Positions 297 through 23,840 of a DNA stretch of 35,418 nt are shown here, piece after piece; position 1 is the first letter of the stretch, and every line of letters starts with the position of its first letter. Below the pieces are notes generated by a model. That model worked only from the letters and a program-made list of their open reading frames with translations. It was not told the DNA's origin and ran no database searches. The position numbers and the translations under genes were made by a program. Source of the stretch: Sneathiellales bacterium (GTDB lineage: Bacteria > Pseudomonadota > Alphaproteobacteria > JANQFL01); contig JANQFL010000093.1 of assembly GCA_028277845.1 (NCBI GenBank), positions 1-35,418 of the forward strand. Reading direction: 5' to 3'.

Positions 297-2948
297 ATGG
301 CCGCCTTACCCGAAATAGACCATGAAGAACTGGCCGCGGCCGACACGCAATATCGCCTGGGACAGGTCCATCTGACCCGAAATGCCGCCGACGACGCGCT
401 CGATGCCTTCCGGTCGGCGCTGTCGCACAATCCGGGCCACAACGATGCCAAGTTCGCGACGGCGTATCTGCTCAACGCCATGGGTGGTTTCGACGAGGCC
501 CATGACCTGCTCGGCGAACTTGTCGCGGCCATGCCCGACAATGCGGATGCGTTCTATCAGTTGGGCAAGAGCTGCCAGGGTAAGGACGACATCGCCGGCG
601 CGATCGATCATTTCCGCCGGGCGATCGCCATCGATGCCGATCACTTCGAAGCCATTCGCGATCTCGCGTCGGTCCTGACGATCAGCGGTGCGTTCGCCGA
701 GGCCGAGGAGTTGCTCAAGCGGGCCCTCGAAAACCGGCCCGACGATATCGAGAGCCAGTTCTATTTCGGCAATCTGCTGAGCGAGAGCGGCCGGCACCAG
801 GATGCTCTGCCTTATCTGGAAACCGTCCACACGCTGGCCCGAACACCGGCAACCGGAAACAATTACGCCACGGCGTTGATCAACACCAACCAGCCGCGCA
901 AGGCGCGTGACGTCATCGAAGCGGTGCTGTCTCAGCAGCCGGATTATGGCCTAGGCTGGTTTACCAAGGGCGCCACCTACACCCAGGAAGAAAACCCCAG
1001 GCAGGCGGTGCCCTGCTATCGCAAGGCGCTGGAAACGGGCGTGGCCGAGGACGAGTGTAAAAAACAAATCGCCAGCAGCCTGACGGCGTTGCTGCAGCTT
1101 CGCGAGGCCGTCGAACTCTATCGTGATCTTGAGCAACGCTATCCGGATGACGTTGAAGTCGTTCAGGGCCTGGGCACGGCCCTAGAAGCCCTCGGTCTGT
1201 CTTCACAGGCTTTGCCCTATTTCGAGCGGATGATCGAGCTGCAACCCAACGATGCGGCAAGCTGGAACAACATGGCCTTGTCATTGCAGCAGTTGGGCCG
1301 GTTCAAGGAATCCATTGAAGCCGCCGAGCGCGCGCTGGCGCTCGCCCCGACCCATACCAAGGCCTATCTCGTGGCGGCCAACAGCTACATCAAACTGCGA
1401 CAGAAGGATAAGGCGCTTCCCTATCTGACCGATGCGCTCAAACATGTCGGCGACGATCTCGAACGGCTGTTCATGATCGGCGAACTGTTCGAGGCCATCA
1501 GACTGACCGAAGAGGCATCGCTGATCTACAAGCAGATCGTCGACGTGGATCCGAACTATCCCAAGGCGACGTCACGGCTGCTGGATGCCAGCCTGTCACT
1601 GTGCGACTGGTCGCGCTATGACGAGTTCGTCAACAACCTGATCACGACGGCGCGGCGGGAAATCGAGACCGGCAAACCGTTTTCGTTCGACGTGTTCAAC
1701 CTGCAGGCATTGCCGGTCAGCTACGCGTTCATGTTCGAGGCCGCCAAGTCGTCGGCCCAGTCGATCGCCGAAACGGAGCGGGCCTTCGGCGAACCGTATG
1801 TCCACGCGGCGCGGCCACGCTCGGCGGGCGACCGTATTCGCCTGGGATATCTGCTGCCCTACACGAACTTCCACAGCCTGCCGCTGGTGCTGAAGGAAAT
1901 CGTGGAACGCCACGACCGGGACAGGTTCGAGGTGATCGGCTTCAGCACCAGCAAGTGCGACGCGACGAAATTCAGCCGCGGCTACCGTGCGGCGTTTGAT
2001 TCGTTCTTCGATGTGCCGGCGGCCCTGCCGGTCGAGGCGGCGCGGCAAATCCACGCCCATGGGATCGACGTGTTGATCGATGTCGCCGGCCTGACGTCAC
2101 AGAACTGCATGGACGTCCTGGCGCACCGCCCGGCGCCCGTGCAGGCGCATTTCCTGGGCTATTCGATTACGACCGGGGCGGACTATGTCGATTATCTCAT
2201 CACCGACAAGATCTACATTCCGCCGGAATGGCAGCGGTATTGCAGTGAAAAGGTCGTCTATCTGCCCGAAACATTCATGGCCACGAAACGCCAGGACGCC
2301 GAGGTGGTCGAATTGGAGCGGGCCCATTTCGACCTGCCCGAAAACGGCTTCGTCTTCGCCAATTTCAATCATCCCTGCAAGTTCGAGCCGAGAGTGTTTT
2401 CCGCCTGGATGGAAATCCTGTCCGCGGTGCCGGACAGCGTGCTCTGGTTCGGCGCCTGGACGTCGGCCACGCAACGCAATCTCAAATCGGAAGCGGAGAA
2501 ACACCGCGTCGACCCGGACAGGCTGGTGTTCAGCGACATTGTCGACCGGCCCGTTCACCTGGCCCGCCTCGCCTTGGCGGACCTGGCCCTCGACAATCTC
2601 TATCACGGCGGCGGCATCACCACGGTGGACGCCCTGTGGGTCGGCCTGCCCGTCCTGACCATCAGCGGCAAAACGCCCGGTGCGCGGTTGGGGGCGACCC
2701 TGACGGCGGCCGCGGACCTGCCCGATATGATCGTCGACGACCTGGATGCCTATGTCCGCACCGCCATCGCGCTGGCCCGGGACCCGGCGTCCCTCGCCGC
2801 GATCCGCGACCGCCTCGTCGGCAACCGCGATACCTGCCCGCTGTTCGACCTCGACCGCTACCGCCAGGGGCTGGAACAGGCCATCGAGGCCATGTGGCTG
2901 CGCTTCGAAAACGGCGATAGGCCGGATGTGATCGATATCGGCCGCTAG
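297..2948 (+). CDS. TPR protein with O-GlcNAc transferase-like (SPINDLY/GT41) catalytic domain
   Basis: This 883-aa protein has TPR-like helical repeats over roughly residues 1-430 and a GT41 (SPINDLY/OGT) catalytic half over about 510-860. Visible GT41 landmarks are a conserved His at 526 (motif YLLPYTNFHSLP), the segment GYSITTGADYVDYLITD, a FNHPCKFEP motif with Lys 695 at the position of the nucleotide-sugar-binding Lys of OGTs, and GGGITTVDALWVGLPV near 771. Such enzymes O-glycosylate Ser/Thr of protein targets in the cytoplasm, with the TPRs selecting the substrate. Bacterial homologues often sit in flagellar loci. The start at 297 lacks a strong Shine-Dalgarno. The next gene at 3111 is a paralogue. 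Family assignment is firm; donor sugar and target are unknown. Confidence 0.88.
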   Translation: MAALPEIDHEELAAADTQYRLGQVHLTRNAADDALDAFRSALSHNPGHNDAKFATAYLLNAMGGFDEAHDLLGELVAAMPDNADAFYQLGKSCQGKDDIAGAIDHFRRAIAIDADHFEAIRDLASVLTISGAFAEAEELLKRALENRPDDIESQFYFGNLLSESGRHQDALPYLETVHTLARTPATGNNYATALINTNQPRKARDVIEAVLSQQPDYGLGWFTKGATYTQEENPRQAVPCYRKALETGVAEDECKKQIASSLTALLQLREAVELYRDLEQRYPDDVEVVQGLGTALEALGLSSQALPYFERMIELQPNDAASWNNMALSLQQLGRFKESIEAAERALALAPTHTKAYLVAANSYIKLRQKDKALPYLTDALKHVGDDLERLFMIGELFEAIRLTEEASLIYKQIVDVDPNYPKATSRLLDASLSLCDWSRYDEFVNNLITTARREIETGKPFSFDVFNLQALPVSYAFMFEAAKSSAQSIAETERAFGEPYVHAARPRSAGDRIRLGYLLPYTNFHSLPLVLKEIVERHDRDRFEVIGFSTSKCDATKFSRGYRAAFDSFFDVPAALPVEAARQIHAHGIDVLIDVAGLTSQNCMDVLAHRPAPVQAHFLGYSITTGADYVDYLITDKIYIPPEWQRYCSEKVVYLPETFMATKRQDAEVVELERAHFDLPENGFVFANFNHPCKFEPRVFSAWMEILSAVPDSVLWFGAWTSATQRNLKSEAEKHRVDPDRLVFSDIVDRPVHLARLALADLALDNLYHGGGITTVDALWVGLPVLTISGKTPGARLGATLTAAADLPDMIVDDLDAYVRTAIALARDPASLAAIRDRLVGNRDTCPLFDLDRYRQGLEQAIEAMWLRFENGDRPDVIDIGR

Positions 2949-2979
2949 ACAGGGCGATCGGTTGCCGTCCGGCCCCGAT

Positions 2980-2996
2980 TTAACCCTCGATTAACC
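2980..2996 (+). promoter_or_regulatory. Consensus CtrA-type binding box
   Basis: TTAA-CCCTCGA-TTAACC is a perfect match to TTAA-N7-TTAACC. It lies in the 162-bp gap after the first GT41 gene, and its 3' end is 115 bp before the start at 3111. A further TTAAC half-site follows at 3007-3011. Placement and quality make it the best candidate control site for the second GT41 gene and the two methyltransferases behind it. Confidence 0.75.
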
Positions 2997-3110
2997 TTAC
3001 CCTGCGTTAACTGTTCGATCTCGCATCGTGGTGCGAGTGTTCGGGCGAACCGGTCGATGACCGCCTGAAATTCGCTTTCGTGGAATGACTGATGCAGGTG
3101 TTGACAGGGC

Positions 3111-5375
3111 ATGAGGGCGCCGACGAATAGTGCCGAAACGCCGGACGATGGCGACGGATCGTACCGCCGCGCCGAACGCGCGTTCAATCTCGGCACCATG
3201 CTCAACGACGCCGGGCGCTATCAGGAAGCCGTCGCGCCCCTGCGGGAAGCCTACGAGACGGTGGAAACGCCGGAAATCGCCAACAATCTGGCCGTCGCCC
3301 TGATCCACAGCGGCAAGGCCCTGCAGGCGCGCCTCGAGCTGGAGCGCATTCTCGCCAAGCACGATGATTTCGCCCTCTTATGGGCCACCCACGGCGCCGC
3401 CCTGAAGACCATGGGGCAACCGAAGAAGGCGCTCCTGTCGTTCCGCCGGGCGCTGGAACGCGACCCGCAACTCACCGCCGCCCGGCTCAACCTGGCCACC
3501 ACCCTGCACGCCATGGGCGACTATGCCGAAGCTATCGCCCAGTTCCGCACCGTCCTGTCCGGCCGGGCGGACGACGGCACCGCGATGGCCGGCCTGTGCC
3601 GCTCGCTGCAAAGCCTGGAACAGCATGGCGAGGCGCTCGCTCATCTGGCCGAATACGAGCGTCATCACGGTCTCTCCGTCGAGCTGCAGGAAGTCATGGC
3701 CCTGTCCCTGGAACGGACGGGGCAATTCGAACGGGCGCTGCACATGGTCGAGCAATGCCTGGCCCGGAACGGTGCGATGGCGTGGATGCATATGATCCGC
3801 GCCAACTGCCTCAGCGCGCTCGACCGGCACGACGAGGCCATCCGCGCGGTATCGAAGGCGCTGCGCGACGCCGCCGGCGATGTCACGCTGCTGCACGTCG
3901 CCGGCGGTTTCATGGAAAGCGCCAAGCTGACCCTCGAGGCGGTCAAGATCTACCGGATGATCCTGCGGCTCGACCCCACCGACGGCAGGGCCAATGCCCG
4001 GCTGTTCGACCTCCGGCTCACGCTGTGCGACTGGCAGCACTACGAGACCATGTGTACGGACCTGGTCGACCAGGTGATCCAGGACATCGACACCGGCCAT
4101 GACCTGTCGCTGGACGTCTTCAACCTGCAGGCGCTGCCGCTGTCCTACGAATTCATCGCCAACGCCGCACGCCACCAGGCGTCGATCATTGCCCAAAAAT
4201 CGCGGGCGATCGCCGAACCGTTCTCCCACCCCGAACCGGCGGCGCGGCGCGGCAAGATACGGATCGGCTATCTGCTGCCCTACACCTGGGTCCACAGCCT
4301 GCCCATCGTGCTCAAGGAAATCGTCCGCAACCACGACCGCGACCGGTTCGAGGTGATCGGCTATTGTACGCATCCGTGCACCAACACCGCGTTCAGCCGG
4401 TCCTATCGCGACAGCTTCGACCGTTTCGTCGATCTTCCCAGCTTCGCTCCCGCGGACGCCGCCCGGAAAATTCACGGCGACGACCTGGATCTCCTGATCG
4501 ATGTCGCCGGCCAGACCGGCATGAACTGCATGGACATCCTGGCGTTGCGGCCGGCGCCCATTCAGGCGCACTATCTCGGCTATTCGATCACGACCGGCGC
4601 CGACTATATCGATTACCTGATCACCGACCGCGCCTACATTCCGCCGCGTCAGCAAGCGTTCAACAGCGAGAAGCCGGTCTACCTGCCCGGCACCTTCATG
4701 GCCACCGTACGCGGTACGCAAGGCCCCGGCGCGGTCGCGCGCCAACAGCACGGCCTGCCGCGCGACGCCACCGTGTTCGCCAACTTCAATCACCCCTGCA
4801 AATTCGAGCCCAGTGTCTTTTCCGCATGGATGCGGATTCTGCAGGACGTCCCCGGCTCGGTCATGTGGTTCGGCGCCTGGGCGACCGAGACCATCGCCAA
4901 TCTGAGGCGCGAGGCGGAACAACGCGGCATCGACGGCGACCGGCTGATCTTCGCCGACATCGTCGAGCGCGACGAACACCTCGCCCGGCTCGCCTTGGCC
5001 GACCTGGCGCTCGATACGTTCTTCCACGGCGGGGGCATCACGACGGTGGATGCGTTGTGGGCGGGACTGCCCGTTCTCAGCGCCAAGGGCGAATTGCCCG
5101 GCAGCCGGTTGGGACAGACGCTCCTTGAGGCGGCGGGATTGCCCGAATTGGCCGTCGATGATCTGTCCGCCTATATCGGGAAAGCCGTCTGGCTCGCCAA
5201 CAACCCGGATATTCTCGACGATTACAGACACAAACTTACTTCGGAACGCGAAAACAGTCCGTTGTTCGACACGAGACATCACTGCCGCAAACTCGAACGG
5301 GCGATCGTCGCCATGTGCGAACGCCGCATGTCCGGATTAGAACCGGATCTTATCGATTTAACGTCCATCGATTGA
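3111..5375 (+). CDS. Second TPR protein with O-GlcNAc transferase-like (GT41) domain
   Basis: This 754-aa paralogue of the preceding protein has fewer TPR units (roughly residues 20-300) and a catalytic half over about 380-735. The same landmarks occur with identical spacing: His 395 (YLLPYTWVHSLP), Lys 564 in FNHPCKFEP and GGGITTVDALWAGLPV near 639. The His-to-Lys distance is 169 residues in both proteins. The linker between TPR and catalytic parts (CDW, then a VFNLQALPLSYEF segment) is strongly shared, so the pair looks like a tandem duplication with divergence or loss in the TPR part, which would change target choice more than chemistry. The start is the first ATG after the CtrA box. A methyltransferase gene begins 4 bp after its stop, suggesting one transcript. 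Confidence 0.88.
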   Translation: MRAPTNSAETPDDGDGSYRRAERAFNLGTMLNDAGRYQEAVAPLREAYETVETPEIANNLAVALIHSGKALQARLELERILAKHDDFALLWATHGAALKTMGQPKKALLSFRRALERDPQLTAARLNLATTLHAMGDYAEAIAQFRTVLSGRADDGTAMAGLCRSLQSLEQHGEALAHLAEYERHHGLSVELQEVMALSLERTGQFERALHMVEQCLARNGAMAWMHMIRANCLSALDRHDEAIRAVSKALRDAAGDVTLLHVAGGFMESAKLTLEAVKIYRMILRLDPTDGRANARLFDLRLTLCDWQHYETMCTDLVDQVIQDIDTGHDLSLDVFNLQALPLSYEFIANAARHQASIIAQKSRAIAEPFSHPEPAARRGKIRIGYLLPYTWVHSLPIVLKEIVRNHDRDRFEVIGYCTHPCTNTAFSRSYRDSFDRFVDLPSFAPADAARKIHGDDLDLLIDVAGQTGMNCMDILALRPAPIQAHYLGYSITTGADYIDYLITDRAYIPPRQQAFNSEKPVYLPGTFMATVRGTQGPGAVARQQHGLPRDATVFANFNHPCKFEPSVFSAWMRILQDVPGSVMWFGAWATETIANLRREAEQRGIDGDRLIFADIVERDEHLARLALADLALDTFFHGGGITTVDALWAGLPVLSAKGELPGSRLGQTLLEAAGLPELAVDDLSAYIGKAVWLANNPDILDDYRHKLTSERENSPLFDTRHHCRKLERAIVAMCERRMSGLEPDLIDLTSID

Positions 5376-8610: not shown

Positions 8611-8652
8611 ACGGGCGATCAGAGACGAAATTTGGACGGAACGACAAAGCCA

Positions 8653-10320
8653 ATGAGCACAAACCCCGCTGCCGCGACAATTCCCGACGATATGGATGGG
8701 CGCCTGGCCCTGGGCGCCCAGGCCGTGCAGTCGGGCGATCTTGGGCTGGCCGCGGCCTGTTTTGCCGGCGCCCATGATCTGCAGCCGGAAAACCCGCAAA
8801 TTCTGCAGCACCTGTTCACCATTCTGAACGCACGGGGCGATTTGAAAAGCGCCGAGTCCGCTTTGCAGCGGTTATCGGACCTGGCGCCGCATGACACCAA
8901 CATTCTGTTCCAGCTCGGCATGCTCAAGGGGCGCCGCGGCAACAACGCCGGCGCTTGCGAGGATCTGGAAAAGGCCGCTGAAATCGATCCGGGCAATATC
9001 GCCGCCGAGACCTTTTACGCTGTCTGGTCACAGGGCATCGTCGACCGGTTTCATGAAGTGCCCGGCTTGCTGAACAATGCCGCCGAAAAGGACGGCCAAG
9101 GCGCACATCTGGGTGAGATCGCGGATGTGCTGATCTATCAGCAGCACTATGAAGACGCCGTCCAGCATTTGAAGACATTGGAGACCATCAAGGGCGGTCT
9201 CGACCTGGTGCAGCTGCGCCATATCGCCGTTGCCCTGAAGGAAATGGGCCAGGACGACGAAGCCAAACACGTCTTCGAAACGGCCATATCCGTGTGTGAC
9301 CGCATGATCGGCGAAACCTGGCCGGCGCCCACCACGCTCGACCAGATCCCGGCGGCCATTCGCCCAAAAGTGATGGAACTTCTGGCCTTGACCGCGCGGC
9401 TGTATTTCAACGGCGGCGCCGTCGATCAGGCGCGGGAGCTTTACAAGGCCATGGGCGCGGCGAGTAGCCAGACACTGCAATATGGCGAGCCCTACTGGCC
9501 CGATACGGATCAGCGCGTCGCCCGACTGCGCGCCATGATGCGGGGCCGTGATGTCGTGCTGATGTGCCATGGCCATTCGATCAAGGATTTCGGCGCCCGC
9601 ATCAAGGAAATGGATGGCCGAGACGCCTGCTTTGTCGGCATCAACCGTTTCGGTGTGTTGGAGAGCGAAATCCTGACGCCCGCCGGACGCAAACTGGAAC
9701 TGACGCTGTCCCTGACACCGGGCAGCATTCTCAAGCAGGGCGAAGATTTCGAGGCCTTTTTGTCTCGGAACGATTCCAATATGGCCTTTGTGTCGGGCAC
9801 CGCGATGAATGCCGCGTTTACGCCGGAGGAACGGGACAATCTGCGGACCCGGTTCGACGCCAAGCTGATCGCCGTCAACAACAACAACCTGCGTAGCGTC
9901 ACGCCCGACGATCCGCTTGGCGTGATCCAGGAGAACACCTTGCTGGCCGCCCTACCGCTGATCGTCGCCGGTGCACCGCGCCGGGTATTCCTGATGGGCG
10001 CGGACCAGCGGATCGATACCGACGGTTCGACCGATTCCCATTTCGGTACCAGGTCGGAGCACTTCAAATCGCCGGAAAAAACGGCCTTTGTCGCCCCCAG
10101 CGACGACCGGCGGTCCCTCAAGAACTTCGATCAGACCATGATCAACGACGCCAAGATCTGCGACCGGGACGTGGCCTATCAGGTCATGGCCATGGCGGCA
10201 CTGCACGGTTTCGAAGAGCCGGCGGTCTACAACGTGTCGCCGAACAGCAGGCTGGAGGCTTTCGAGAAAATCGACCTGGACCGTTTCCTTGAAATGGTAG
10301 GTCAGGACACCGGGAACTGA
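8653..10320 (+). CDS. TPR protein with DUF115/Maf-like glycosyltransferase domain, copy 1
   Basis: This 555-aa protein has TPR-like repeats over about residues 10-270 and then a DUF115 (MptE-like, motor-accessory-factor) domain from about 298 (DVVLMCHGHSIKDF, then VGINRFGVLE and FLMGADQRID). Maf/DUF115 proteins of Campylobacter, Helicobacter and Aeromonas are required for flagellin glycosylation with nonulosonic acids and are candidate transferases. The domain also faintly recalls GT42 sialyltransferases (CGNGPSL-type start). The more common GPSL appears here as GHSI, while the second copy at 22095 keeps GPSL. The ATG at 8653 is preferred over an in-frame TTG 21 bp upstream. The position inside a nonulosonate operon supports transfer of that sugar to protein, by inference. 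Confidence 0.72.
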   Translation: MSTNPAAATIPDDMDGRLALGAQAVQSGDLGLAAACFAGAHDLQPENPQILQHLFTILNARGDLKSAESALQRLSDLAPHDTNILFQLGMLKGRRGNNAGACEDLEKAAEIDPGNIAAETFYAVWSQGIVDRFHEVPGLLNNAAEKDGQGAHLGEIADVLIYQQHYEDAVQHLKTLETIKGGLDLVQLRHIAVALKEMGQDDEAKHVFETAISVCDRMIGETWPAPTTLDQIPAAIRPKVMELLALTARLYFNGGAVDQARELYKAMGAASSQTLQYGEPYWPDTDQRVARLRAMMRGRDVVLMCHGHSIKDFGARIKEMDGRDACFVGINRFGVLESEILTPAGRKLELTLSLTPGSILKQGEDFEAFLSRNDSNMAFVSGTAMNAAFTPEERDNLRTRFDAKLIAVNNNNLRSVTPDDPLGVIQENTLLAALPLIVAGAPRRVFLMGADQRIDTDGSTDSHFGTRSEHFKSPEKTAFVAPSDDRRSLKNFDQTMINDAKICDRDVAYQVMAMAALHGFEEPAVYNVSPNSRLEAFEKIDLDRFLEMVGQDTGN

Positions 10321-10323
10321 ACC

Positions 10324-11283
10324 ATGCAAGCCCACGGCATCATGTTTCATCACTTCACCGACGACCATCACCCGCCGGTGCAAGGCGCCATGACAGCGGA
10401 TGATCTGCGCGATCTCATTCGTTTTGTCGGCCGGCAGAACATTCTGTCCGCCAAGGAATGGCTGGATCGGGCGCTGAACAATGATCTGGACGCCAATCAC
10501 CGCTGCCTGACCTTTGACGACAATCTGCGTTGCCAATACGACATCGTGTTGCCGGTTCTGCAGTCCGAAGGATTAACGGCATTCTGGTTCGTCTATACGT
10601 CACCGCTGGAAGGCAAGGCGGAAAAACTGGAAGTCTATCGCCAGTTCCGCACCACGCACTTTACCTCCGTCGATGAGTTCTACAGCCGGTTCTTCCGATC
10701 CGTGTCGCAATCGGAAGAAGGTACAAAGGTGCGCGAGGCCTTGAACGGCTTCGATCCGCGCGGTTATCTGCCGCAATACCCCTACTACAGTGACAGCGAC
10801 AGGGTGTTCCGGTATGTCCGCGACCATGTCCTGGGCACGGAGCGTTACAACCGGGCGATGGACAAGCTGATCGCCGAAAGCGACACATCGGCCGCGGAGA
10901 TCGCCGACGAACTATGGCTCAACGCGGAGCAGATCAAGCACCTGCATGACACGGGCCACATCATCGGATTGCACAGCCATACACATCCGACCGTGGTGTC
11001 GGGATTGCCGACGGAAACCCAGGCCGAGGAATTCGAACGCAACCGCAAAGCATTGGCGGACATTATCGGCACGTCGCCGACCACGGCCGCACATCCCTGC
11101 AATTCATATGACGCCGCCACCCTGTCCATTTTCTCGGACATGGGCGTCCGCATGGCATTCCGCGCCGACCAGACCAAGACCGAACACGGGCTGCTGGAAA
11201 TGCCCCGCGAAGACCACGCCAACATCATGGCCCGTATGAAACGCTACACCGTCGATACGATGCCCGTCGCAGCATCATTTTGA
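10324..11283 (+). CDS. Polysaccharide deacetylase family protein (NodB/CE4-like)
   Basis: This 319-aa protein has a CE4-type metal site: TFDD at residues 63-66, with the catalytic-base and metal Asp, and HSHTH at about 217-221, matching H(S/T)xxH. A long insertion of about 100 residues separates the two motifs, and a late HPCNSYD segment resembles the RxPYG-like motif region. No signal peptide is evident, so it likely acts in the cytoplasm on a sugar intermediate or lipid-linked glycan rather than on wall polysaccharide. It starts 3 bp after the preceding stop and 9 bp ahead of the next gene, so it is co-expressed with the sugar operon. Removing an N-acetyl before another acyl group is added would fit, but that is inference. 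Confidence 0.7.
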   Translation: MQAHGIMFHHFTDDHHPPVQGAMTADDLRDLIRFVGRQNILSAKEWLDRALNNDLDANHRCLTFDDNLRCQYDIVLPVLQSEGLTAFWFVYTSPLEGKAEKLEVYRQFRTTHFTSVDEFYSRFFRSVSQSEEGTKVREALNGFDPRGYLPQYPYYSDSDRVFRYVRDHVLGTERYNRAMDKLIAESDTSAAEIADELWLNAEQIKHLHDTGHIIGLHSHTHPTVVSGLPTETQAEEFERNRKALADIIGTSPTTAAHPCNSYDAATLSIFSDMGVRMAFRADQTKTEHGLLEMPREDHANIMARMKRYTVDTMPVAASF

Positions 11284-11292
11284 GGACCGATT

Positions 11293-12327
11293 ATGAGCAT
11301 CAGAGTAGGAATCAACGGATTTGGCCGCATTGGGCGCTGCGTCGCCCGCTTGTGCGCCGAAAGCCCGGATGTGGATATCGTCGCCGTCAACGACATCATG
11401 GACGATCCGGAAAACCTGGCCTACCTCTACAACTACGATTCCACCTACGGCCGGGCGGAGAAGAAAGCCAAACGGGTCAATGGCAACGGTACGCTGGCCA
11501 TCGGCGAAGACCAGTTCCAGCTTTACGCCAAGCCCGATATCACCGAGGTGCCGTGGGACCGCGACGACGTCGACGTGGTCATCGATAGTTCCGGCGTGCG
11601 GGCCAATGTCACCGGCTGCCAAACGCTGGTCAACGACGAGAAAGTCAAGAAAGCGGTGGTCACCCACCTGCCCGACGGCGACATCGACCGCGCCCTGATC
11701 ATGGGCGTCAACGACAACGAATACGACGCCGACAGCGACCACGTGGTCTCCAGCGTCATTTGCGACGCCAACGCCATCGCTCACGTGCTGTCGGTGTTCG
11801 AGGAACAGTTCGGCATCGAGGGCGGTTTCGTCACCACCCTGCATCCGTGGCTGGCCTATCAGAACCTGGTCGACCGGGGTGTCAGCTCGCAATCCAACCC
11901 GGGCCATTTCTGGAAGGACTATTCGCTGGGCCGCGCCTCCATCGGCACCATGATTCCGAAGGAAACCACCGCGATGAACGCCCTGCGCCCGATCATGTCG
12001 GACGTGGTCGACAAGGTGCACGCATTTTCCTACCGGGTGCCGACCGGCATTGTCGCCAGCGCCGACCTGACGCTCCGGCTGAAGGACAATCCGGGACTGG
12101 ATACCATCGTGCAGTCGCTGGAGAACTACGCCGACAATTCGCCATACGTTTCCATCAACTACGAATCCCTGACCGCGCTGGATTACCTGGCGACGCCGTG
12201 GTCGGCCATTATCGACATGCAGTGGACCGCCATGTGCGACGACATGGTCAAGGTGGTGCTCTGGTACGACAACGAATGGGGCTACAGCAACCGGGTGGTC
12301 GACGTGGTGCGCCACGTGGCCGCCTGA
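11293..12327 (+). CDS. Glyceraldehyde-3-phosphate dehydrogenase-like protein with altered active-site context
   Basis: This 344-aa protein has the complete type I GAPDH fold signature: NAD motif GINGFGRIG at 6-14, catalytic Cys 157, partner His 184 (27 residues apart, as in ordinary GAPDH), FSYRVPTG with Arg 248, and the closing WYDNEWGYSNRVVD. The normally invariant SCTTN around the nucleophile reads ICDAN, however: the Ser and Thr flanking the Cys, which help bind phosphate, are replaced by Ile and Asp. The TTTH-type segment reads TTLHPW. It is probably a catalytic aldehyde dehydrogenase or reductase with a different, perhaps non-phosphorylated, substrate. Its place in a sugar-synthesis operon (GAGGA Shine-Dalgarno just before the ATG) argues against a housekeeping glycolytic role. 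Confidence 0.82.
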   Translation: MSIRVGINGFGRIGRCVARLCAESPDVDIVAVNDIMDDPENLAYLYNYDSTYGRAEKKAKRVNGNGTLAIGEDQFQLYAKPDITEVPWDRDDVDVVIDSSGVRANVTGCQTLVNDEKVKKAVVTHLPDGDIDRALIMGVNDNEYDADSDHVVSSVICDANAIAHVLSVFEEQFGIEGGFVTTLHPWLAYQNLVDRGVSSQSNPGHFWKDYSLGRASIGTMIPKETTAMNALRPIMSDVVDKVHAFSYRVPTGIVASADLTLRLKDNPGLDTIVQSLENYADNSPYVSINYESLTALDYLATPWSAIIDMQWTAMCDDMVKVVLWYDNEWGYSNRVVDVVRHVAA

Positions 12328-12355: not shown

Positions 12356-13102
12356 ATGATAGCGGGACTGCTGATCGGCAAGGACAAGAGCGTCGGCATG
12401 CCGGGAAAGAACGTCCGGACCCTTCTGGGCCGGCCCATGGCGGAGTACGGCTTCATCGCCGGCCGCGCGGCCGGCGTTGACGCGTTCTATACCTCGACCG
12501 ATTCGCCGGGCATCGCCGAGATCGGCGCCCGTTACGGCGCCGAACACATCCAGCGCCCGCCGGAACTGGCGACACCCGACAGCCTGACCGAGGACGTACT
12601 GACCCATGCCTTCGGCGAGATGGAAAAGCGCGCGGGCCAGGAGATCGACATCGTCGTCCTGCTGTTCGCAAACGCGCCGGCCATTAACGTAAATTTGATA
12701 AAGGAAGGCCTGCAGGTGCTGCAGGAAATGCCGGAGTTCGATTCGGCCTTTTCCGCGGTGCAGTACAACATGTTCAGCCCGGCCCGGGCGCGCAAGGTAA
12801 CCGCCGAGCGCTCCATCGAATCCTTCGTCGACCTGGACCTCCTGGACAATGTCTCTTCGATCCGCGACAGCCAGGGCGACTGTTACTTCTGCGACCTGTC
12901 GGTGCAGGTCATGCGCCGGCGCTGCTTCACCCACATGGATGAAGGTATGCAGCCGTTCCAGTGGATGGGCCGCAAGTCCTACGCCTTGATGAACGACTTC
13001 GGTTTCGACGCCGACACAGAGTGGCAGGTGCTGGTGCTGGAACACTGGCTGCGTGAACACGGCTTCACCGAGACCACCATCCCCTACGAGCTGTCCTGGT
13101 AG
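12356..13102 (+). CDS. NeuA-like cytidylyltransferase (acylneuraminate cytidylyltransferase family), divergent
   Basis: This 248-aa protein resembles CMP-nonulosonate synthetases: MPGKNVRTLLGRPMAEYGF near the N-terminus, a YTSTDSPGIAEIGARYGAE block and a RPPELATPDSLTEDV block, in the usual order. The canonical start PARGGSKG is replaced by LIGKDKSVG, and the usual LLQPTSPLR by LLFANAPAI, so it is an outlying member. It should activate an ulosonic acid as a CMP derivative in the cytoplasm. A GAGGAG Shine-Dalgarno sits about 10 bp before the ATG. The next gene follows after 7 bp. A local AT-rich patch with uncommon codons occurs near 12,683-12,705. An SpsF-like enzyme at 16231 is a second nucleotidyltransferase candidate, so the division of labour is unclear. 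Confidence 0.72.
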   Translation: MIAGLLIGKDKSVGMPGKNVRTLLGRPMAEYGFIAGRAAGVDAFYTSTDSPGIAEIGARYGAEHIQRPPELATPDSLTEDVLTHAFGEMEKRAGQEIDIVVLLFANAPAINVNLIKEGLQVLQEMPEFDSAFSAVQYNMFSPARARKVTAERSIESFVDLDLLDNVSSIRDSQGDCYFCDLSVQVMRRRCFTHMDEGMQPFQWMGRKSYALMNDFGFDADTEWQVLVLEHWLREHGFTETTIPYELSW

Positions 13103-13109
13103 GCGACCG

Positions 13110-13898
13110 ATGCCGGAGACCAATTTCCTCAAACAAAAGCTCGACGGCGGCGCGTTGACCGTCGGTACCTGGTGCGCCATCCCCTCGCCCACCGTCACCA
13201 ACGTGTTGGGCCGGGCCGGTTTCGACTATGTCATCATCGACCGCGAGCACGGCCCGAACGAATTCGAGACCATCGAGAGCATGGTGCGTGCCGCCGAACT
13301 GTGCGGCTGTTCGCCGCTGGTGCGCGTCTCGACACTGGATGAGGCGGAAATCCTGCGCGCCCTCGATGTCGGTGCTCATGGTGTCATCGTGCCGCAGATC
13401 GAATCGGTGGAACAGGCCCGCGCGGCAGTTGCCGCCGCCAAATACGCCCCGGTCGGCACCCGCGGTTTTTCGCCCTACACCCGGTCAGGCGGTTATCACC
13501 ACACCCAGACCAACGCCGACAAGCAGGCCGCCGCCAACCGCGACACCTTGCTGGTGCTGCTGGTCGAGGGCCCCAAGGGCCTGGCGGCGCTCGGCGATAT
13601 CCTCGATGCCACCGCCGAGTCGGTCGGGTCCATCTACATCGGCCCTTACGACCTGGCCAACGCCATTGGGTTACCCGGCCAGGTGGATCACCCGGACGTT
13701 GTGCAGCGGGTCAGCGACAGTTTCAAGACCATCCGCGGCCACGGCGTCGCGCCGTCCACGCTGGCGCGTTCGCAGGCCGAGGTCGAACACTATGCGTCCC
13801 TGGGCGCCCGCATGCTGGCCTATCAGGCCGACGTCGGCGTACTGTTCGAGGCGGTCACCGGGATCGTCGACGGCGTCCGCCGCGTACCGGTGGCATAA
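13110..13898 (+). CDS. HpcH/HpaI-family aldolase
   Basis: This 262-aa protein has the class II pyruvate aldolase pattern of HpaI/GarL/RhmA: DREHG at 44-48 with catalytic His 47, VRV with Arg 72, VIVPQIESVEQA, GTRGFSPYTRSGG, LVEGPKG with metal-ligand Glu 153, and IGPYDLANAIG with Asp 181. These enzymes reversibly join pyruvate to an aldehyde to give 4-hydroxy-2-oxo acids in the cytoplasm. The ATG at 13110 follows the preceding stop by 7 bp; an upstream in-frame ATG at 13053 lies inside the previous gene and adds a non-homologous tail. With a GAPDH-like and a D-2-hydroxyacid dehydrogenase beside it, it may make or break an oxo-acid building block for the glycan. Substrate unknown. Confidence 0.82.
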   Translation: MPETNFLKQKLDGGALTVGTWCAIPSPTVTNVLGRAGFDYVIIDREHGPNEFETIESMVRAAELCGCSPLVRVSTLDEAEILRALDVGAHGVIVPQIESVEQARAAVAAAKYAPVGTRGFSPYTRSGGYHHTQTNADKQAAANRDTLLVLLVEGPKGLAALGDILDATAESVGSIYIGPYDLANAIGLPGQVDHPDVVQRVSDSFKTIRGHGVAPSTLARSQAEVEHYASLGARMLAYQADVGVLFEAVTGIVDGVRRVPVA

Positions 13899-13902
13899 CG
13901 AT

Positions 13903-14910
13903 ATGAAAAACACAGGGAGCAACGCCTTGATTGTCGGCATCACCGATTACGTCCGCCCGCCCTTCACCGTCGAACAGGATGCTCTGGGGGATAGCGTCGA
14001 ATTCGTCTATTTCGAAAGCGAGGACGAGAACACCTTCGACGGTGGCGACCTGGCCCGCCTCGACGGCCTGATGGTGTGGCACGCTCACATCACCGAACAA
14101 ACCGTCAGCCAACTGGACCGTTGCCGCATCGTTGTTCGGTACGGTGTCGGCTACGACAATATCGACACTGCCGCCCTGCAGGCCCGCGAGCTGCCGTTCT
14201 GCAACACGCCCGACTACGGCACCGAGGAAGTGGCCGATACGGCGTCCGGCATGATCCTCGGCCTGCAGCGCAAGATCGGCGCCTACGACGTGGCCTGCCG
14301 GCACTTCGACCAGGGCTGGCAGGAACACGTGCAACCGCCGCTTAACCGCACCAATCAAGTGACGCTTGGCGTGGTCGGCGTGGGCCGCATCGGCACGGCG
14401 GTGATGAACCGCATGAAGCCGTTCGGCTTCCGGCTGATGGGCTACGATCCCAACCAGCCGTCGGGTCACGAAAAGGCGATCGGTTACGAACGCGCCGGCA
14501 GTCTCGAACAGTTGCTCGCCGAGGCCGACATCGTCACCGTGCACTGCCCGTTGAGCGTCGACACCGCCGGCATGGTCGACGCGGACTTCGTCGCCAAGAT
14601 GAAGCCGGGATCCTACCTGGTGAACACCGCCCGCGGCGGCATCGTCAAGGACCTGGACGTGGTCTGGGACGCCTTCCAGTCGGGTCATCTGGCCGGCGCC
14701 GCCCTTGACGTGCTGCCCGACGAACCGCCCAAGGATCATCCCATGATCCAGGCGTGGCGCGCCTTCGACCCGGCCGTCGCCGGGCGCATCGTCATCAACC
14801 CGCACACCGCCTACTACTCCGAATCGGCCTGGTACGAAATGCGCTACAAGGCCGCCGAAACCGTCAAGCTTTGCCTGCAGGACGGCGTCCTGCGCAACCG
14901 GATCGTCTGA
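13903..14910 (+). CDS. D-2-hydroxyacid dehydrogenase (CtBP/phosphoglycerate dehydrogenase-like)
   Basis: This 335-aa protein has the full D-isomer-specific 2-hydroxyacid dehydrogenase layout: RYGVGYDNID and NTPDYGTEEVADTA in the substrate domain, a Rossmann motif GVVGVGRIGTAV, and the catalytic trio Arg (NTARGGIV), Glu (DVLPDEPP) and His (INPHTAYYSE). The phrase RYGVGYDNID and the PDYGTEEVAD block resemble the CtBP-like branch. It interconverts a 2-oxo acid and a D-2-hydroxy acid with NAD(H). The ATG at 13903 is 4 bp after the aldolase stop; a longer frame reaching back to 13228 is only an overlap with the aldolase gene. The natural hypothesis is that it acts on the aldolase product or a related oxo acid. 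The next gene is separated by an inserted element. Confidence 0.84.
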   Translation: MKNTGSNALIVGITDYVRPPFTVEQDALGDSVEFVYFESEDENTFDGGDLARLDGLMVWHAHITEQTVSQLDRCRIVVRYGVGYDNIDTAALQARELPFCNTPDYGTEEVADTASGMILGLQRKIGAYDVACRHFDQGWQEHVQPPLNRTNQVTLGVVGVGRIGTAVMNRMKPFGFRLMGYDPNQPSGHEKAIGYERAGSLEQLLAEADIVTVHCPLSVDTAGMVDADFVAKMKPGSYLVNTARGGIVKDLDVVWDAFQSGHLAGAALDVLPDEPPKDHPMIQAWRAFDPAVAGRIVINPHTAYYSESAWYEMRYKAAETVKLCLQDGVLRNRIV

Positions 14911-14950: not shown

Positions 14951-15232
14951 CTAGAAGCTCGCATCTTTCACACTCCTTGCGCCCTGCGTCGCCTTGCGGC
15001 GTGCTGAATGTATGCGCGGGACGGGAAGAGCGTATCACGCCATACGGTCGAGCGGCACGCGCTTACAGGCGGCCGTCGCAAGGCGACCCAAAGGGCCGGC
15101 TGCAAATGACGACAGGGTGCGTCGAACGGCTTGGCCGTACTGCCGGTACGCCCGGCGCCGCTCTTCTGCCCTGTCGTCATTTTCAGCCGGCGCAGGGCAC
15201 AAGGAGTGTGAAAGATGCGAGCTAAGTCTAGA
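14951..15232. mobile_element. MITE-like element with 33-bp terminal inverted repeats and CTAGA flanks
   Basis: Terminal inverted repeats lie at 14956-14988 and 15191-15223 (32 of 33 positions match). Inside are two further inverted repeats: 14988-15001 with 15074-15087 (13/14) and 15096-15117 with 15169-15190 (21/22, abutting the right terminal repeat). CTAGA occurs directly outside on both sides (14951-14955 and 15228-15232), consistent with a duplicated target; three extra bases lie between the right repeat and the right CTAGA. No transposase is encoded. Joining the flanks at CTAGA restores an open frame from an ATG at 14935 into the neuB-like gene. I do not recognise the family. The duplication is inferred from short repeats, but CTAG is generally rare in bacterial DNA, which strengthens the case. 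Confidence 0.8.
15201..15217 (+). promoter_or_regulatory. Shine-Dalgarno and ATG supplied by the element's right terminal repeat
   Basis: AAGGAG at 15201-15206 is followed after 8 bases by ATG at 15215. Both lie inside the right terminal repeat and initiate the neuB-like gene. The presumed original start, ATG at 14935, has only a weak GTGGA upstream. Confidence 0.75.
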
Positions 15233-16234
15233 CCCGAATTCGACAAGACCTATGTCATCGCCGAGATGGCGTGTTCCCACGAGGGCGATACCAAGCTGGC
15301 GCGCAAGATCATCGACGGCGCCGGCCAGGCGGGGGCCCAGGCCATCCAGTTCCAGATCTGGACCCACACCGAAGTGGTGGTGCCGCACCACAACGATTTC
15401 CCGGTGATGCAGAAACTGCAGTTCAGCCACGACGACTGGCTCGGCCTGCGCGACCATGTGCGCGAGAACTACCCGGACATGCACATCATCGCCTGTGTCT
15501 ACGAGCCGGGCAGCACGAAGTTCGCCAACGAGTTCGGCGCCGACGCCTTCAAGCTGCATTCGGCCGACCTGTCGAACCCGGTCATGCTGCAGTGCGTCGC
15601 CGAGACCGGCAAGCGCATCGACCTGAGCGTCGGCGGCTCGACCATCGCCGAGATCCAGACCGCCATCGAGACCATCAACAATGCCGGCAACCGGGACATC
15701 TGGCTGATGTACGGTCTGCAGTTGTTCCCGACCACGCCCGACGTGGTGCACCTGAAATACATGATGAAGCTGCGCGAGCTGTTCGAACTGCCGATCGGCT
15801 ATCAGGACCACACCGACGGCGGCGAGCCGGGCGCCTTCCACCTGCCCGCCGCGGCCATGGGCCTGGGCGTGGAGATCCTGGAAAAGCACATCACCCACGA
15901 CCGTTCGTTCAAGGGCATCGACCACCAGGCGGCCCTGAACCCGGACGAGTTCGGCGACTTCACGACCATGGTGCGGGAAATCGACCGGGCCATGGGCGTG
16001 CCCATTCCGCGGCCGTTCTCGGAGGCCGAGGAAAAATACCGCATCTATTCCAAAAAGAGCATCGTCGCCGCCCACGACATTCCCGCCGGTGCCAAGGTCA
16101 GCCAGGACGACATCCGTTTCATGCGCTCGCCCGACATGGGCCTGCCGCCGGACCGCTGCAACCTGGTGCTGGGCCGCGAAACCAAAGCCGCCATCCCCGC
16201 CTACGCCCTGGTCGGCGAGGACGACCTGGTATGA
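15215..16234 (+). CDS. Divergent NeuB-family synthase with SAF domain, N-terminus rebuilt by an insertion
   Basis: This 339-aa protein has the NeuB TIM-barrel pattern: YVIAEMACSHEGD at the start, AIQFQIWTHTEVV, FKLHSADLSNPVML, GYQDHTDGG and ILEKHITHDR, then a C-terminal SAF (antifreeze-like) domain from about residue 280. NeuB enzymes condense phosphoenolpyruvate with an amino-hexose to form a nonulosonic acid. This one departs from the canonical LHCTSxYP and SDHT segments (LMYGLQLFPTT; GYQDHT), so its acceptor may differ from ManNAc-type sugars. Residues 1-5 (MRAKS) come from the inserted element; the ancestral start was probably MNYIDTRPEFDKTY. It overlaps the next gene by 4 bp. A canonical NeuB lies at 18027. 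Confidence 0.82.
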   Translation: MRAKSRPEFDKTYVIAEMACSHEGDTKLARKIIDGAGQAGAQAIQFQIWTHTEVVVPHHNDFPVMQKLQFSHDDWLGLRDHVRENYPDMHIIACVYEPGSTKFANEFGADAFKLHSADLSNPVMLQCVAETGKRIDLSVGGSTIAEIQTAIETINNAGNRDIWLMYGLQLFPTTPDVVHLKYMMKLRELFELPIGYQDHTDGGEPGAFHLPAAAMGLGVEILEKHITHDRSFKGIDHQAALNPDEFGDFTTMVREIDRAMGVPIPRPFSEAEEKYRIYSKKSIVAAHDIPAGAKVSQDDIRFMRSPDMGLPPDRCNLVLGRETKAAIPAYALVGEDDLV

Positions 16235-17010
16235 GCATCGCCATCCTGCTCACGGCCCGGCTGAAGTCGTCGCGCCTCGCCCGCAAGGTCGAGAAGCCGA
16301 TCCACGGCAAGGCCATGCTCGGTCACTTGATCGAGCGGCTCAAACTGGCTAAGGAGCCGGATCGCATCGTGCTGTGCACGTCGACGGTCGAGCAGGACGA
16401 CCCCCTGGCCGATATCGCCGAAGAGGAAGGCGTGGATTTCTTCCGCAGCCATCCCGACGACGTACTGGTGCGCATCCGCGACGCCGCCCGCGAGTTCGGC
16501 GTCGACACCATCGTCGTGTGCACCGGCGACAACCCGTTCATCGACCCGCCGCACATCGACGCCCTTGTCCGGTTCGCCCGGGACAACACATTGGACTACG
16601 CCATCACCGCCGACCTGCCGCTGGGTGTCACCGCCTATGTGCTGAATGCTTCGGCGGTGGAGCAGGCCTGCCTGATCAAGGAAGACGTCGACACCGAGTT
16701 CTGGCCGGAATACTTCACCGAATCGGGTATTTTCCGTTTCGGCGAAATGCCGCCGCTGGCCAAGGAATTCGCCCGGTCCGACTTGCGTCTGACGGTGGAC
16801 TATCAGGAAGACTTCGAACTGGTCACGGCGGTCTTCGACGCGCTGAACGAGACCGGCAACACGTTTCCGCTGGCCGACATCATCCGTTACCTCGACAGCC
16901 ACCCCGACGTCCGTGATCTGAACGCCAACGTGCAGCAGGCGGTGCGCAAGCGCCCGACCCTGAAGCCGCGGGACGACTGGCAGGATGTTTTGAAGGAGGC
17001 CGCGAGCTGA
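16231..17010 (+). CDS. SpsF-like nucleotidyltransferase (cytidylyltransferase family)
   Basis: This 259-aa protein matches the SpsF branch of glycan-linked cytidylyltransferases: LLTARLKSSRLARKVEKPIHGKAM is the equivalent of the usual QARxxSxRLPgK start, then HLIERLK, CTSTVEQDDPLADIA, FRSHPDDVLVRIRDAA and VCTGDNPFIDPPHID with the metal-binding Asp. It should activate a sugar or ulosonic acid with CTP in the cytoplasm. It starts inside the stop of the neuB-like gene (ATGA overlap) and its own TGA overlaps the LegB start (TGATG), so translation is coupled on both sides. This pairing suggests it activates the product of the adjacent NeuB rather than of the distant one, which is inference. Confidence 0.75.
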   Translation: MSIAILLTARLKSSRLARKVEKPIHGKAMLGHLIERLKLAKEPDRIVLCTSTVEQDDPLADIAEEEGVDFFRSHPDDVLVRIRDAAREFGVDTIVVCTGDNPFIDPPHIDALVRFARDNTLDYAITADLPLGVTAYVLNASAVEQACLIKEDVDTEFWPEYFTESGIFRFGEMPPLAKEFARSDLRLTVDYQEDFELVTAVFDALNETGNTFPLADIIRYLDSHPDVRDLNANVQQAVRKRPTLKPRDDWQDVLKEAAS

Positions 17011-18011
17011 TGGCCGACAAGGTCCTCGTCACCGGCGCCGATGGCTTCATCGGCTCGCACCTGGTCGAACACCTGGTCGCCCGGGGCAACGATGTGCGCG
17101 CCTTCTGCATGTACAACTCCATGGGTTCGTGGGGCTGGCTCGACACCGTGCCGAAGGACGTCCGGGACAGCCTCAACGTCGTGCTCGGCGACGTGCGCGA
17201 CAGCCACTGCGTGCGGGAAGCCATGCGCGGCTGCGACACGGTGCTGCATCTCGCGGCCCTGATCGGCATCCCCTACTCCTACGTGGCGCCGGAGTCCTAC
17301 GTCGATACAAACGTGACCGGCACGCTCAACGTGCTCATGGCCGCCCGGGACCTGGACACGAACAAGGTCGTCACCACCTCGACCAGCGAGGTCTATGGTT
17401 CGGCCCAGTTCGTGCCGATCACCGAGGACCATCCCCTGGTCGGCCAATCGCCCTACGCCGCCACCAAGATCGGCGCCGACCAAATGGCGCTGTCGTTCCA
17501 CACCTCGTTCGACCAGCCGGTCGCCGTGGCCCGGCCGTTCAACACCTACGGCCCGCGCCAGTCGGCCCGGGCGGTGATCCCGACCATCATCACGCAAATC
17601 GCCAACGGCCAACGCACCATCGAACTGGGGTCGCTGATGCCGACCCGCGACTTCAACTTCGTCGCCGATACGGCCCGCGGACTGGCAGCCGTGGCCGATC
17701 ATCCCGACACGGTCGGACAGGTCACCAACCTGGGCAGCGCCTTCGAGATCAGCGTCGGCGACACGGCGGCCATGATCGCCGAGGTGATGAACGCCGACGT
17801 GGAGATCAAGCGGGACCCGGCGCGTATCCGGCCCGAAGCCAGCGAGGTGGACCGGCTGTTCGCCAGCAACGACAAGGCCAAGGACATCATGGGCTGGGAA
17901 CCCGAATATGCCGGGCTGGACGGCCTGCGCCGGGGCCTGGCCGCCACCGCCGAATGGTTTTCCGATCCGCAGAATTTGGCCCGCTATCCCCACATGGGAT
18001 ACGCGATCTAA
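17010..18011 (+). CDS. legB: LegB-like NAD-dependent sugar-nucleotide 4,6-dehydratase
   Basis: This 333-aa extended SDR has VTGADGFIGSH at the N-terminus, YNSMGSWGWLDT, LHLAALIGIPYSYVAPESYVDTN, TSTSEVYGSAQ, the catalytic YAATK, and RPFNTYGPRQSARAVIPT. The NS-SWGWLDT and IPYSY blocks are hallmarks of LegB, which dehydrates GDP-GlcNAc to the 4-keto-6-deoxy sugar in legionaminic acid synthesis. A PtmE-like GDP-sugar enzyme upstream fits. Its start overlaps the preceding stop by one base. No aminotransferase (LegC) or N-acetyltransferase (LegH) follows anywhere in the window, so the 4-keto group may be handled by another enzyme, such as the SDR at 19082, or the missing genes lie elsewhere. Confidence 0.88.
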   Translation: MADKVLVTGADGFIGSHLVEHLVARGNDVRAFCMYNSMGSWGWLDTVPKDVRDSLNVVLGDVRDSHCVREAMRGCDTVLHLAALIGIPYSYVAPESYVDTNVTGTLNVLMAARDLDTNKVVTTSTSEVYGSAQFVPITEDHPLVGQSPYAATKIGADQMALSFHTSFDQPVAVARPFNTYGPRQSARAVIPTIITQIANGQRTIELGSLMPTRDFNFVADTARGLAAVADHPDTVGQVTNLGSAFEISVGDTAAMIAEVMNADVEIKRDPARIRPEASEVDRLFASNDKAKDIMGWEPEYAGLDGLRRGLAATAEWFSDPQNLARYPHMGYAI

Positions 18012-22094: not shown

Positions 22095-23840
22095 TCAGGA
22101 ATCCTGATCGAGCACGTCGAGGCACTGCTCGTAGCTGATCTTCGGCTCGATGGTCGTCAAACTGTCGGGATTGACGTTGTAGATTTCCGGCCTGGGCAGA
22201 TCGTAGAGCGCGCAGATCGCCGACAGGTTGGCTTCCCAGATTTCGTTGAATTCCTGGGTATCGGCGTGGATGGCGTCGGCATAGACGTCGTCGAAATTGT
22301 CCGGCAGGTGGAAAACGAACTCGTCCGTTTCCTTCTTGAAGTGGGTGCTCTTCTTGTTTTCCCCCTTCACCCCGCCGTCGGCGCCGAAAATGAAGATGCG
22401 GCGCGGCAGGGCCAGGGCGGCCACGCACATCAGCACCGACAAGGTGTTGCAGGGAATGAAGTCGAACGGCTCGGCCGGCGACGGCGGCGCCTGTGAACTG
22501 GATTCGAAGTACAGCAGGCGTTCGTTGACCGTGCGCTCCAGGTCGTCGCGGGTCGGCTGCGGCGGCAAAACCGCGCCCAGGGTGCTGAAGGTGGTCACCA
22601 GCAGATTGTCCCGGGGCCGTTGCAGGAACGCGTCCACCGCCGGAATGATGTCCTTCATCATGTGCGGCGGCGTGACGGCGATGACGTCCAATTGCTTGCC
22701 GATCTTGTCCAGCAGGTGGGTTTCCGTCAGTTGGAACCGGTTCAGGCCGAAATAGCAGAAGTCGTGTCCGGCGAAATCCTCGAGCCGTTCCTCGAAACCG
22801 CTGAGCGACGGACCGTGGGCCAGGATAGCGATGTCGCGTCCGGCGACGATCTTGCGCAGGCGTTCGATACGGCCGAAAAAATCGGGCAGATAAGCACCCT
22901 TGCTGAAGTCGTAGTCCGTTTGAGCCCAGGGCGCGCACATGGTGCGCAAGGTATCCTCGGCGGCATGCCTTTGTCCCATCAGCAACTGGACACGGGCCTT
23001 GAAGCCTTGGTGCATGATGGCTTTGTGCGGATCGTCGTTGATCTGCAAATCGATCAATTGCTGCGACAATGACAATAGGGACTCAGCCACCGACGCGGCC
23101 TCGTCGTCGGCACCAATGGCCCGCAGTGAACTCAACCGCATCAATTGCTGGAACACATTGACCTTGCCGATCGCTTCGAGCTTCTTGACGCAATCGACGA
23201 CCTCCCGGTAGCGCAGGTTCCGGTAATAAAGTTGAACCAGATTGGTCAGAATTTCGGGATCGTCGGGACTGAGCTGTAATGCCCTTTCCATGGCGGCCAC
23301 ACCGGTGCCGGCGAACAGATATTCAGTAATGCATTGTTGTCCCAGCGCCTTGAGGTAGGACAAGTTGTCGGGCTCGAGATTGACGGCCTCCTTCAGTTCC
23401 CGGTGGGCGTCGTATAGCAGCCCCTCCTCCAGCAACACCAGGCCGTAGAAGTAGCGGAACAAAGCGGTCCCGGGTTCCTTTTCCACTGCCCGCGCCGCCG
23501 CGAGCCGGCCTTTACCCCGTTCGCCGCTCAACGCCAAGTGACGCGCCAGTATGTAGTCGATCGCGGGATCGAGATGCGTCATTTCCAGCAGCGTATCCCA
23601 AGTCTGGTTCGCAAGATCCATCCGCCCGGCCTGCTCGTAAATCGCACTCATATGAAGCAGGGTTTCGGCGTCCGCAGGATTATTCTGCAGAATCTTGATA
23701 TAGCCGTCCGCGGCAAGCTGAAGATCGCCGTGCAGATGATAAAGCTGCACACGCTCCCGTTCCGACAGGATGGCAAAACGGCTGTGCGCCGGATGTTCAG
23801 TGCGCAGGGGTTCGGACGCGTCTTGAGGTGTCGCCGACAT
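22095..23840 (-). CDS. TPR protein with DUF115/Maf-like glycosyltransferase domain, copy 2
   Basis: This 581-aa protein has TPR-like repeats over about residues 30-300 and a DUF115 domain from about 335 with IAILAHGPSLSGFEERL, YFGLNRFQLTE, FSTLGAVLPP and IFIFGADGGVKGENK. It is a paralogue of the protein at 8653 but keeps the usual GPSL motif. It probably glycosylates flagellin or another surface protein with the sugar made next door. The start is uncertain: the ATG at 23840 has AAGG directly against it, an unfavourable spacing, and lies only 22 bp from a CtrA box. A GTG at 23750 (beginning VQLYHLHGDLQLAA) would put the box 112 bp upstream, as for the other boxed genes. Confidence 0.72.
   Translation of the reverse strand: MSATPQDASEPLRTEHPAHSRFAILSERERVQLYHLHGDLQLAADGYIKILQNNPADAETLLHMSAIYEQAGRMDLANQTWDTLLEMTHLDPAIDYILARHLALSGERGKGRLAAARAVEKEPGTALFRYFYGLVLLEEGLLYDAHRELKEAVNLEPDNLSYLKALGQQCITEYLFAGTGVAAMERALQLSPDDPEILTNLVQLYYRNLRYREVVDCVKKLEAIGKVNVFQQLMRLSSLRAIGADDEAASVAESLLSLSQQLIDLQINDDPHKAIMHQGFKARVQLLMGQRHAAEDTLRTMCAPWAQTDYDFSKGAYLPDFFGRIERLRKIVAGRDIAILAHGPSLSGFEERLEDFAGHDFCYFGLNRFQLTETHLLDKIGKQLDVIAVTPPHMMKDIIPAVDAFLQRPRDNLLVTTFSTLGAVLPPQPTRDDLERTVNERLLYFESSSQAPPSPAEPFDFIPCNTLSVLMCVAALALPRRIFIFGADGGVKGENKKSTHFKKETDEFVFHLPDNFDDVYADAIHADTQEFNEIWEANLSAICALYDLPRPEIYNVNPDSLTTIEPKISYEQCLDVLDQDS

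Follow-up and report, generated by a model that had tools for sequence, protein, structure and literature searches.

The gene GAPDHv lies in a window of 35,418 nucleotides (the whole stretch of DNA analysed, contig JANQFL010000093.1 from a Sneathiellales bacterium) and encodes a member of the type I GAPDH superfamily. Judged on its sequence, it very probably represents a distinct subfamily and not a normal phosphorylating GAPDH, and as far as could be established this subfamily is undescribed. We give a roughly even chance (about 50 %) to the reading that it is an NAD-dependent, non-phosphorylating dehydrogenase acting on a small hydroxyaldehyde or aldose that has no phosphate in the usual place, the acid formed being passed on to a D-isomer 2-hydroxyacid dehydrogenase (D2HDH) encoded nearby.

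The reading frame is complete and intact (344 residues), and its product is covered over the whole length by PF00044 (99.1 bits) and PF02800 (74.8 bits), both above the Pfam cut-offs. Two AlphaFold models have mean pLDDT values of 87 and 89; the top fold matches of the first are PDB GAPDHs (TM about 0.9), and the only poorly predicted part is the S-loop, within residues 188–215 (pLDDT <50 at 188–212 or 189–215). Among the NCBIfam models, that for type I GAPDH (TIGR01534) is the best match but, at 237 bits, the cut-off of 367.2 is not reached, nor is the cut-off of 539 for the Epd model (202.5 bits). Five relatives of GAPDHv score 193–253 bits on TIGR01534. Annotation at the level of domains would label genes of this type plain GAPDH. 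GAPDHv is not the housekeeping gap gene of this genome; a separate, ordinary gap gene with the SCTTN motif, whose presence the original prediction had proposed as a check, was found at G000:C124:710-1717, adjoining pgk and a transketolase-like end.

Few enzymes are as well studied or as strongly conserved as GAPDH. An alignment of GAPDHv and one relative (a gammaproteobacterial copy, G955, described below) with 77 other GAPDHs (housekeeping, Epd, ArsJ-associated and others) bore out the original claims that the catalytic pair, Cys157 and His184, keeps the canonical spacing of 27 residues and that the NAD motif is intact (INGFGRIGR, with Asp34 as the equivalent of the cofactor-binding D32). Both proteins retain the equivalents of Cys149, His176, T208, R231, N313 and Asp32, residue numbers here being those of the standard Bacillus GAPDH. 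The reported replacement of SCTTN by ICDAN also stands, as the first four positions are S, C, T and T in all 77 other GAPDHs and I, C, D and A only in GAPDHv and the G955 copy. These two are likewise the only ones with Tyr for D/T181 (Tyr189 in GAPDHv), with Lys for S/T206 (Lys223) and with an S-loop longer by 9–10 residues. T179, present in 76 of the 77, is Leu in both (Leu187), and G209, a Gly in 72 of the 77, is Thr (Thr226). Hence, the inorganic-phosphate site S148/T150/T208/G209 reads I/D/T/T, with T208 alone retained, and the substrate-phosphate site T179/D/T181/R231 reads L/Y/R, with R231 alone retained. The original prediction had the hydroxyls that contact the inorganic phosphate removed. 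That site is indeed changed, but of the SCTTN hydroxyls only those of S148 and T150 belong to it, and the substrate-phosphate site, which had not been considered, is altered too. Because of the changes at S148, T150 and G209 together with those at T179 and D/T181, both phosphate pockets have been rebuilt. The loop following the His is 78 % identical between GAPDHv and the G955 copy, against about 40 % elsewhere, and the active-site region is therefore under the tightest constraint. Since a 46 % identical homologue from another class also carries SICDANAIAH, ICDAN is not a product of chance or sequencing error.

Relatives with these features were scarce in the collections searched. When 385 genomes of the class were searched (E 1e-70), GAPDHv matched nothing but itself, and 398 genomes of the phylum (E 1e-55) yielded no variant relative, the three matches being SCTTN GAPDHs. 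Plasmids and annotated phages gave only GAPDHs that were ordinary by identity, of which a sample was read. A single-sequence scan of genome_contigs returned 64 ordinary SCTTN GAPDHs because the search patterns lay outside the signature region. Of 185 genomes from the class to which Pseudohongiella belongs (Gammaproteobacteria), one carries the G955 copy (G955:C240:466-1494; 46–47 % identity), which keeps every signature. Search patterns chosen from these two sequences retrieved further relatives from IMG/VR, namely L116 (42 %), L117–L119 (41 %, a single lineage), L120 (37 %) and L125 (38 %, on a 175-kb contig), so that true relatives span 37–47 % identity. Two looser patterns found only chance matches in viral contigs (T150D alone, 14 matches; CD plus HPW, 8). 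ICDA, TTLHPWL, YQN, LGR and PK.T are kept in 7/7 aligned members, of which five come from viral contigs, while the L125 copy, which is more distant, reads ICDT and TTVHPWLNYQN. The subfamily signature (ICD at 156–158, HPWL, the S-loop insertion and PK.T) is present in the window, L114, L116, L117–L120 and L125. In a phylogenetic tree, the six GAPDHv lineages form one clade (support 100/100), apart from Epd, the ArsJ type and the genome's own gap. On plasmids of Sulfitobacter and Limimaricola (L086/L087), SCTTN GAPDH paralogues with S in place of G209 lie right after or near bhcABCD, the genes of the beta-hydroxyaspartate cycle, and these may be a second specialised GAPDH branch.

The L120 copy adjoins genes for head closure, a head–tail adaptor and a tail-sheath stabiliser (T4-like virion genes) and so belongs to a real tailed phage. 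The viral status of L116–L119 and L125 comes mostly from IMG/VR, and the genes near the L116–L119 copies are mainly glycan genes. That GAPDHv occurs on viral contigs suggests that phages, too, are equipped to make the same sugar. Two phage families of unknown function, phrog_21942 and phrog_26092, match GAPDHv and the linked D2HDH of L116, L117 and L125, and annotated phages may therefore hold more members.

As originally described, GAPDHv is part of a sugar operon, with a deacetylase gene on one side and a NeuA-like gene on the other. The deacetylase gene, GAPDHv, CMPt1, the HpcH aldolase gene and D2HDH form a tight run (Table 1) with gaps of 9, 28, 10 and 4 bp, and 304 bp separate D2HDH from the next operon, which is of NeuB type. 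Flanks are complete in five lineages, the L120 contig ending inside the CMP-transferase gene. The order GAPDHv-CMPt-HpcH-D2HDH of the window recurs in L125, with an additional small HAD-like gene, and in L116, with a small ORF carrying an FDGV motif after GAPDHv. In L117–L119 it is HAD, GAPDHv, CMPt, FAH, D2HDH, and in G955 it is GAPDHv, a weak HAD-like gene, SDR, FAH, CMPt, D2HDH, in a cluster that also has a CDP-sugar-type dehydratase, aminotransferases and a glycosyltransferase. The HAD-like calls in G955, L116 and L125 are weak (below the Pfam cut-offs). A CTP_transf_3 CMP-transferase and a D-2-hydroxyacid dehydrogenase are thus constant partners in 5/5 of these lineages, and it is highly likely that GAPDHv is functionally tied to both. 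Co-occurrence with the aldolase, which the original prediction had proposed examining, holds in three lineages, while two have a FAH-family enzyme instead of HpcH. CMPt1 shares 54 % identity with its counterpart in L116 and D2HDH 58 % with that in G955; the CMP-transferases of L117, L125 and L120 are strongly diverged from that of the window, though their position is unchanged. Conserved motifs include RYGVG, NTARG and NPH in D2HDH, which look catalytic, and D.EH and YDL in HpcH.

Table 1. Positions of GAPDHv, its active-site segments and surrounding genes in the window
Feature	Position	Strand	Remarks
TPR/Maf-like flanking proteins	297-5375, 8632-10320, 22095-23840		From reading of the sequence
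Polysaccharide deacetylase family gene	10324..11283	+	Same gene run, outside conserved core
GAPDHv	11293..12327	+	GAPDH-variant dehydrogenase, 344 aa, ICDAN active site and S-loop insertion
ICDAN	11758..11772	+	Codons 156-160; canonical SCTTN; Cys157 catalytic
HPWLAYQ	11842..11862	+	Codons 184-190; catalytic His184; T179 to Leu187, D/T181 to Tyr189
S-loop	11863..11934	+	Remodelled and lengthened, NLVDRGVSSQSNPGHFWKDYSLGR, codons 191-214
CMPt1	12356..13102	+	CTP_transf_3 cytidylyltransferase, PseF-like but below the cut-off of that model
HpcH	13113..13898	+	HpcH/HpaI class II 2-oxo-acid aldolase; ATG start near 13110-13113
D2HDH	13903..14910	+	D-isomer 2-hydroxyacid dehydrogenase
NeuB2	15215-16234		Second NeuB-like synthase
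CMPt2	16234-17010		SpsF/KdsB-like cytidylyltransferase, directly 5' of LegB
NeuB2-CMPt2-LegB	15215-18011		

Other groupings were considered and set aside. The deacetylase gene is absent from the other loci, and no GAPDH adjoins its 47 % relative in a glycan locus of Sinorhizobium. D2HDH alone does not mark the module, as 55 % relatives occur in a Rhizobium locus without a GAPDH. Nor does the module belong to the legionaminic-type operon: the NeuB2, CMPt2 and LegB trio is found together (46–53 % identity) in G257:C11 (L074) without it, and the two are separable because each occurs without the other. At a further locus (L097, G326:C14), a relative of CMPt1 (40–41 %) accompanies a PGDH-like 2-hydroxyacid dehydrogenase, a HAD-like gene and a Gfo/Idh-like oxidoreductase; no GAPDH was found in the 20 kb read around it, and this locus may encode the same route in variant form. 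The window also holds LegB, LegI and LegG-like genes, but a search of the whole genome for a LegC-type aminotransferase gave weak matches only (30–34 %), so that the legionaminic-type pathway seems either to be incomplete or to rely on a different aminotransferase. The sugar genes are flanked by two Maf-like proteins and by two large TPR proteins whose ends resemble O-GlcNAc transferase, an arrangement that suggests glycosylation of flagellin or other proteins.

The fold, the catalytic pair, the loss of phosphate-site residues, the single subfamily and the conserved neighbours are shown by the sequences, and from them we infer the chemistry, substrate, direction and product of the module, the originally predicted activity of a non-phosphorylating or alternative aldehyde dehydrogenase included. 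Cys157 and His184 would form a thiohemiacetal and then a thioester, as in GAPDH. With Ile, Asp and Thr occupying the inorganic-phosphate site, attack by phosphate is unlikely, and the thioester would be released to water or another non-phosphate acceptor, giving a hydroxy acid; Asp158, beside the nucleophile in the rebuilt pockets, could repel phosphate and help to activate water. That GAPDHv makes a carboxylic acid is, on balance, probable. D2HDH would then oxidise the hydroxy acid at C2 to a 2-oxo acid, HpcH (or the FAH-family enzyme in other lineages) would perform C–C chemistry on it, and the resulting 2-ulosonic acid would be activated by the CMP-transferase for a surface glycan. CTP_transf_3 enzymes activate 2-ulosonic acids in the sialic acid and KDO pathways. 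FAH-family enzymes are not known as aldolases; the exchange of HpcH and FAH between lineages is left unexplained by the proposed route. HpcH aldolases use 2-oxo acids, hydroxypyruvate included, as nucleophile and in vitro can join hydroxypyruvate with hydroxyaldehydes (PMC7610986). The route to a CMP-ulosonic acid is favoured because a 2-oxo acid suits HpcH and a 2-ulosonic acid suits CTP_transf_3, though as a complete sequence from GAPDHv through D2HDH and HpcH or FAH to the CMP-transferase it is put forward only tentatively. A new route to CMP-2-ulosonic acids that dispenses with a PEP-dependent synthase of the NeuB/KdsA type, used by bacteria for surface glycans and present in tailed phages too, is similarly conceivable but doubtful. 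The placing of GAPDHv before D2HDH is assumed, and either enzyme may run reductively. Given the retained R231 and T208, an anionic, even phosphorylated, substrate is possible; GAPDH, Epd and ArsJ-associated GAPDH illustrate that inferring a substrate from sequence is unsafe. Given the constant link of GAPDHv with the CMP-transferase and D2HDH, three or four recombinant enzymes would suffice to put an undescribed sugar-acid pathway directly to the test, and no description of this gene set was found in the open-access literature.

Acyl decorations of nonulosonic acids are known, and GAPDHv might instead make a small decoration, either acyl or hydroxy acid, such as glycerate with which a nonulosonic acid is N- or O-acylated, with the CMP-transferase acting on a separate sugar. 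The setting of the window agrees with this, being a region of nonulosonic acid genes and Maf-like glycosyltransferases that includes LegB, but in G955, L116, L117 and L125 the core has no NeuB or LegB nearby and the CMP-transferase is always present, so we consider it unlikely. GAPDH-fold enzymes are reversible and an HpcH aldolase requires an aldehyde, and GAPDHv could thus run reductively, converting an activated acid to the aldehyde acceptor for the aldolase; the lost phosphate-site residues argue against an acyl-phosphate substrate and the core has no linked kinase, making this a slightly poorer prospect still. It is improbable that GAPDHv is one more phosphorylating GAPDH, or an enzyme like Epd, whose active-site residues have drifted while its activity is ordinary. 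Though the fold, the Cys/His pair, the NAD residues, T208 and R231 are retained and the GAPDH-I model is the best NCBIfam match, the scores fall far below both cut-offs, all members share the same changes at both phosphate sites with a highly conserved loop, and a housekeeping gap is already in the genome. A phosphonate pathway, with an aldehyde dehydrogenase, a 2-hydroxyacid dehydrogenase and a CMP-transferase as in phosphinothricin-type clusters, is very improbable, for although phosphonate clusters use CMP-transferases and the aldehyde dehydrogenase PhpJ (PMC8976061), the PEP mutase motif was not found in the window, L114, L116, L117, L118, L120 or L125, and it is the sialic-acid/KDO cytidylyltransferase family that the CMP-transferases match.

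Compared with known systems, the proposed acid-forming route shares with the nonulosonic acid pathways (NeuB followed by NeuA, PseF or LegF) a CMP-transferase of the same broad family, in the same region of the window, but unlike them the GAPDHv core has no PEP-dependent synthase nearby in G955, L116, L117 and L125. Possible non-phosphorylating oxidation recalls GapN, although that enzyme belongs to the aldehyde dehydrogenase superfamily and its fold differs from that of GAPDH. The ArsJ-associated GAPDH is likewise a side-pathway paralogue adjoining a partner gene, but retains SCTTN and STG/TTG and lies on a separate branch. The two-step logic is that of Epd and PdxB in vitamin B6 synthesis, where a GAPDH-fold, acid-forming enzyme is followed by a D-2-hydroxyacid dehydrogenase (PMC7954711). 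The Epd compared is also altered at G209, but retains SCTTN and D181, both of which GAPDHv lacks, and GAPDHv falls outside the Epd branch. With type I phosphorylating GAPDH (TIGR01534; PF00044 and PF02800), GAPDHv shares the fold, the NAD site, the Cys–His pair, R231 and T208, and differs in S148I, T150D, T151A, T179L, D/T181Y, G209T and the longer S-loop. The branch, with both its phosphate sites rebuilt and its catalytic pair retained, is thus a natural experiment in altering the GAPDH active site.
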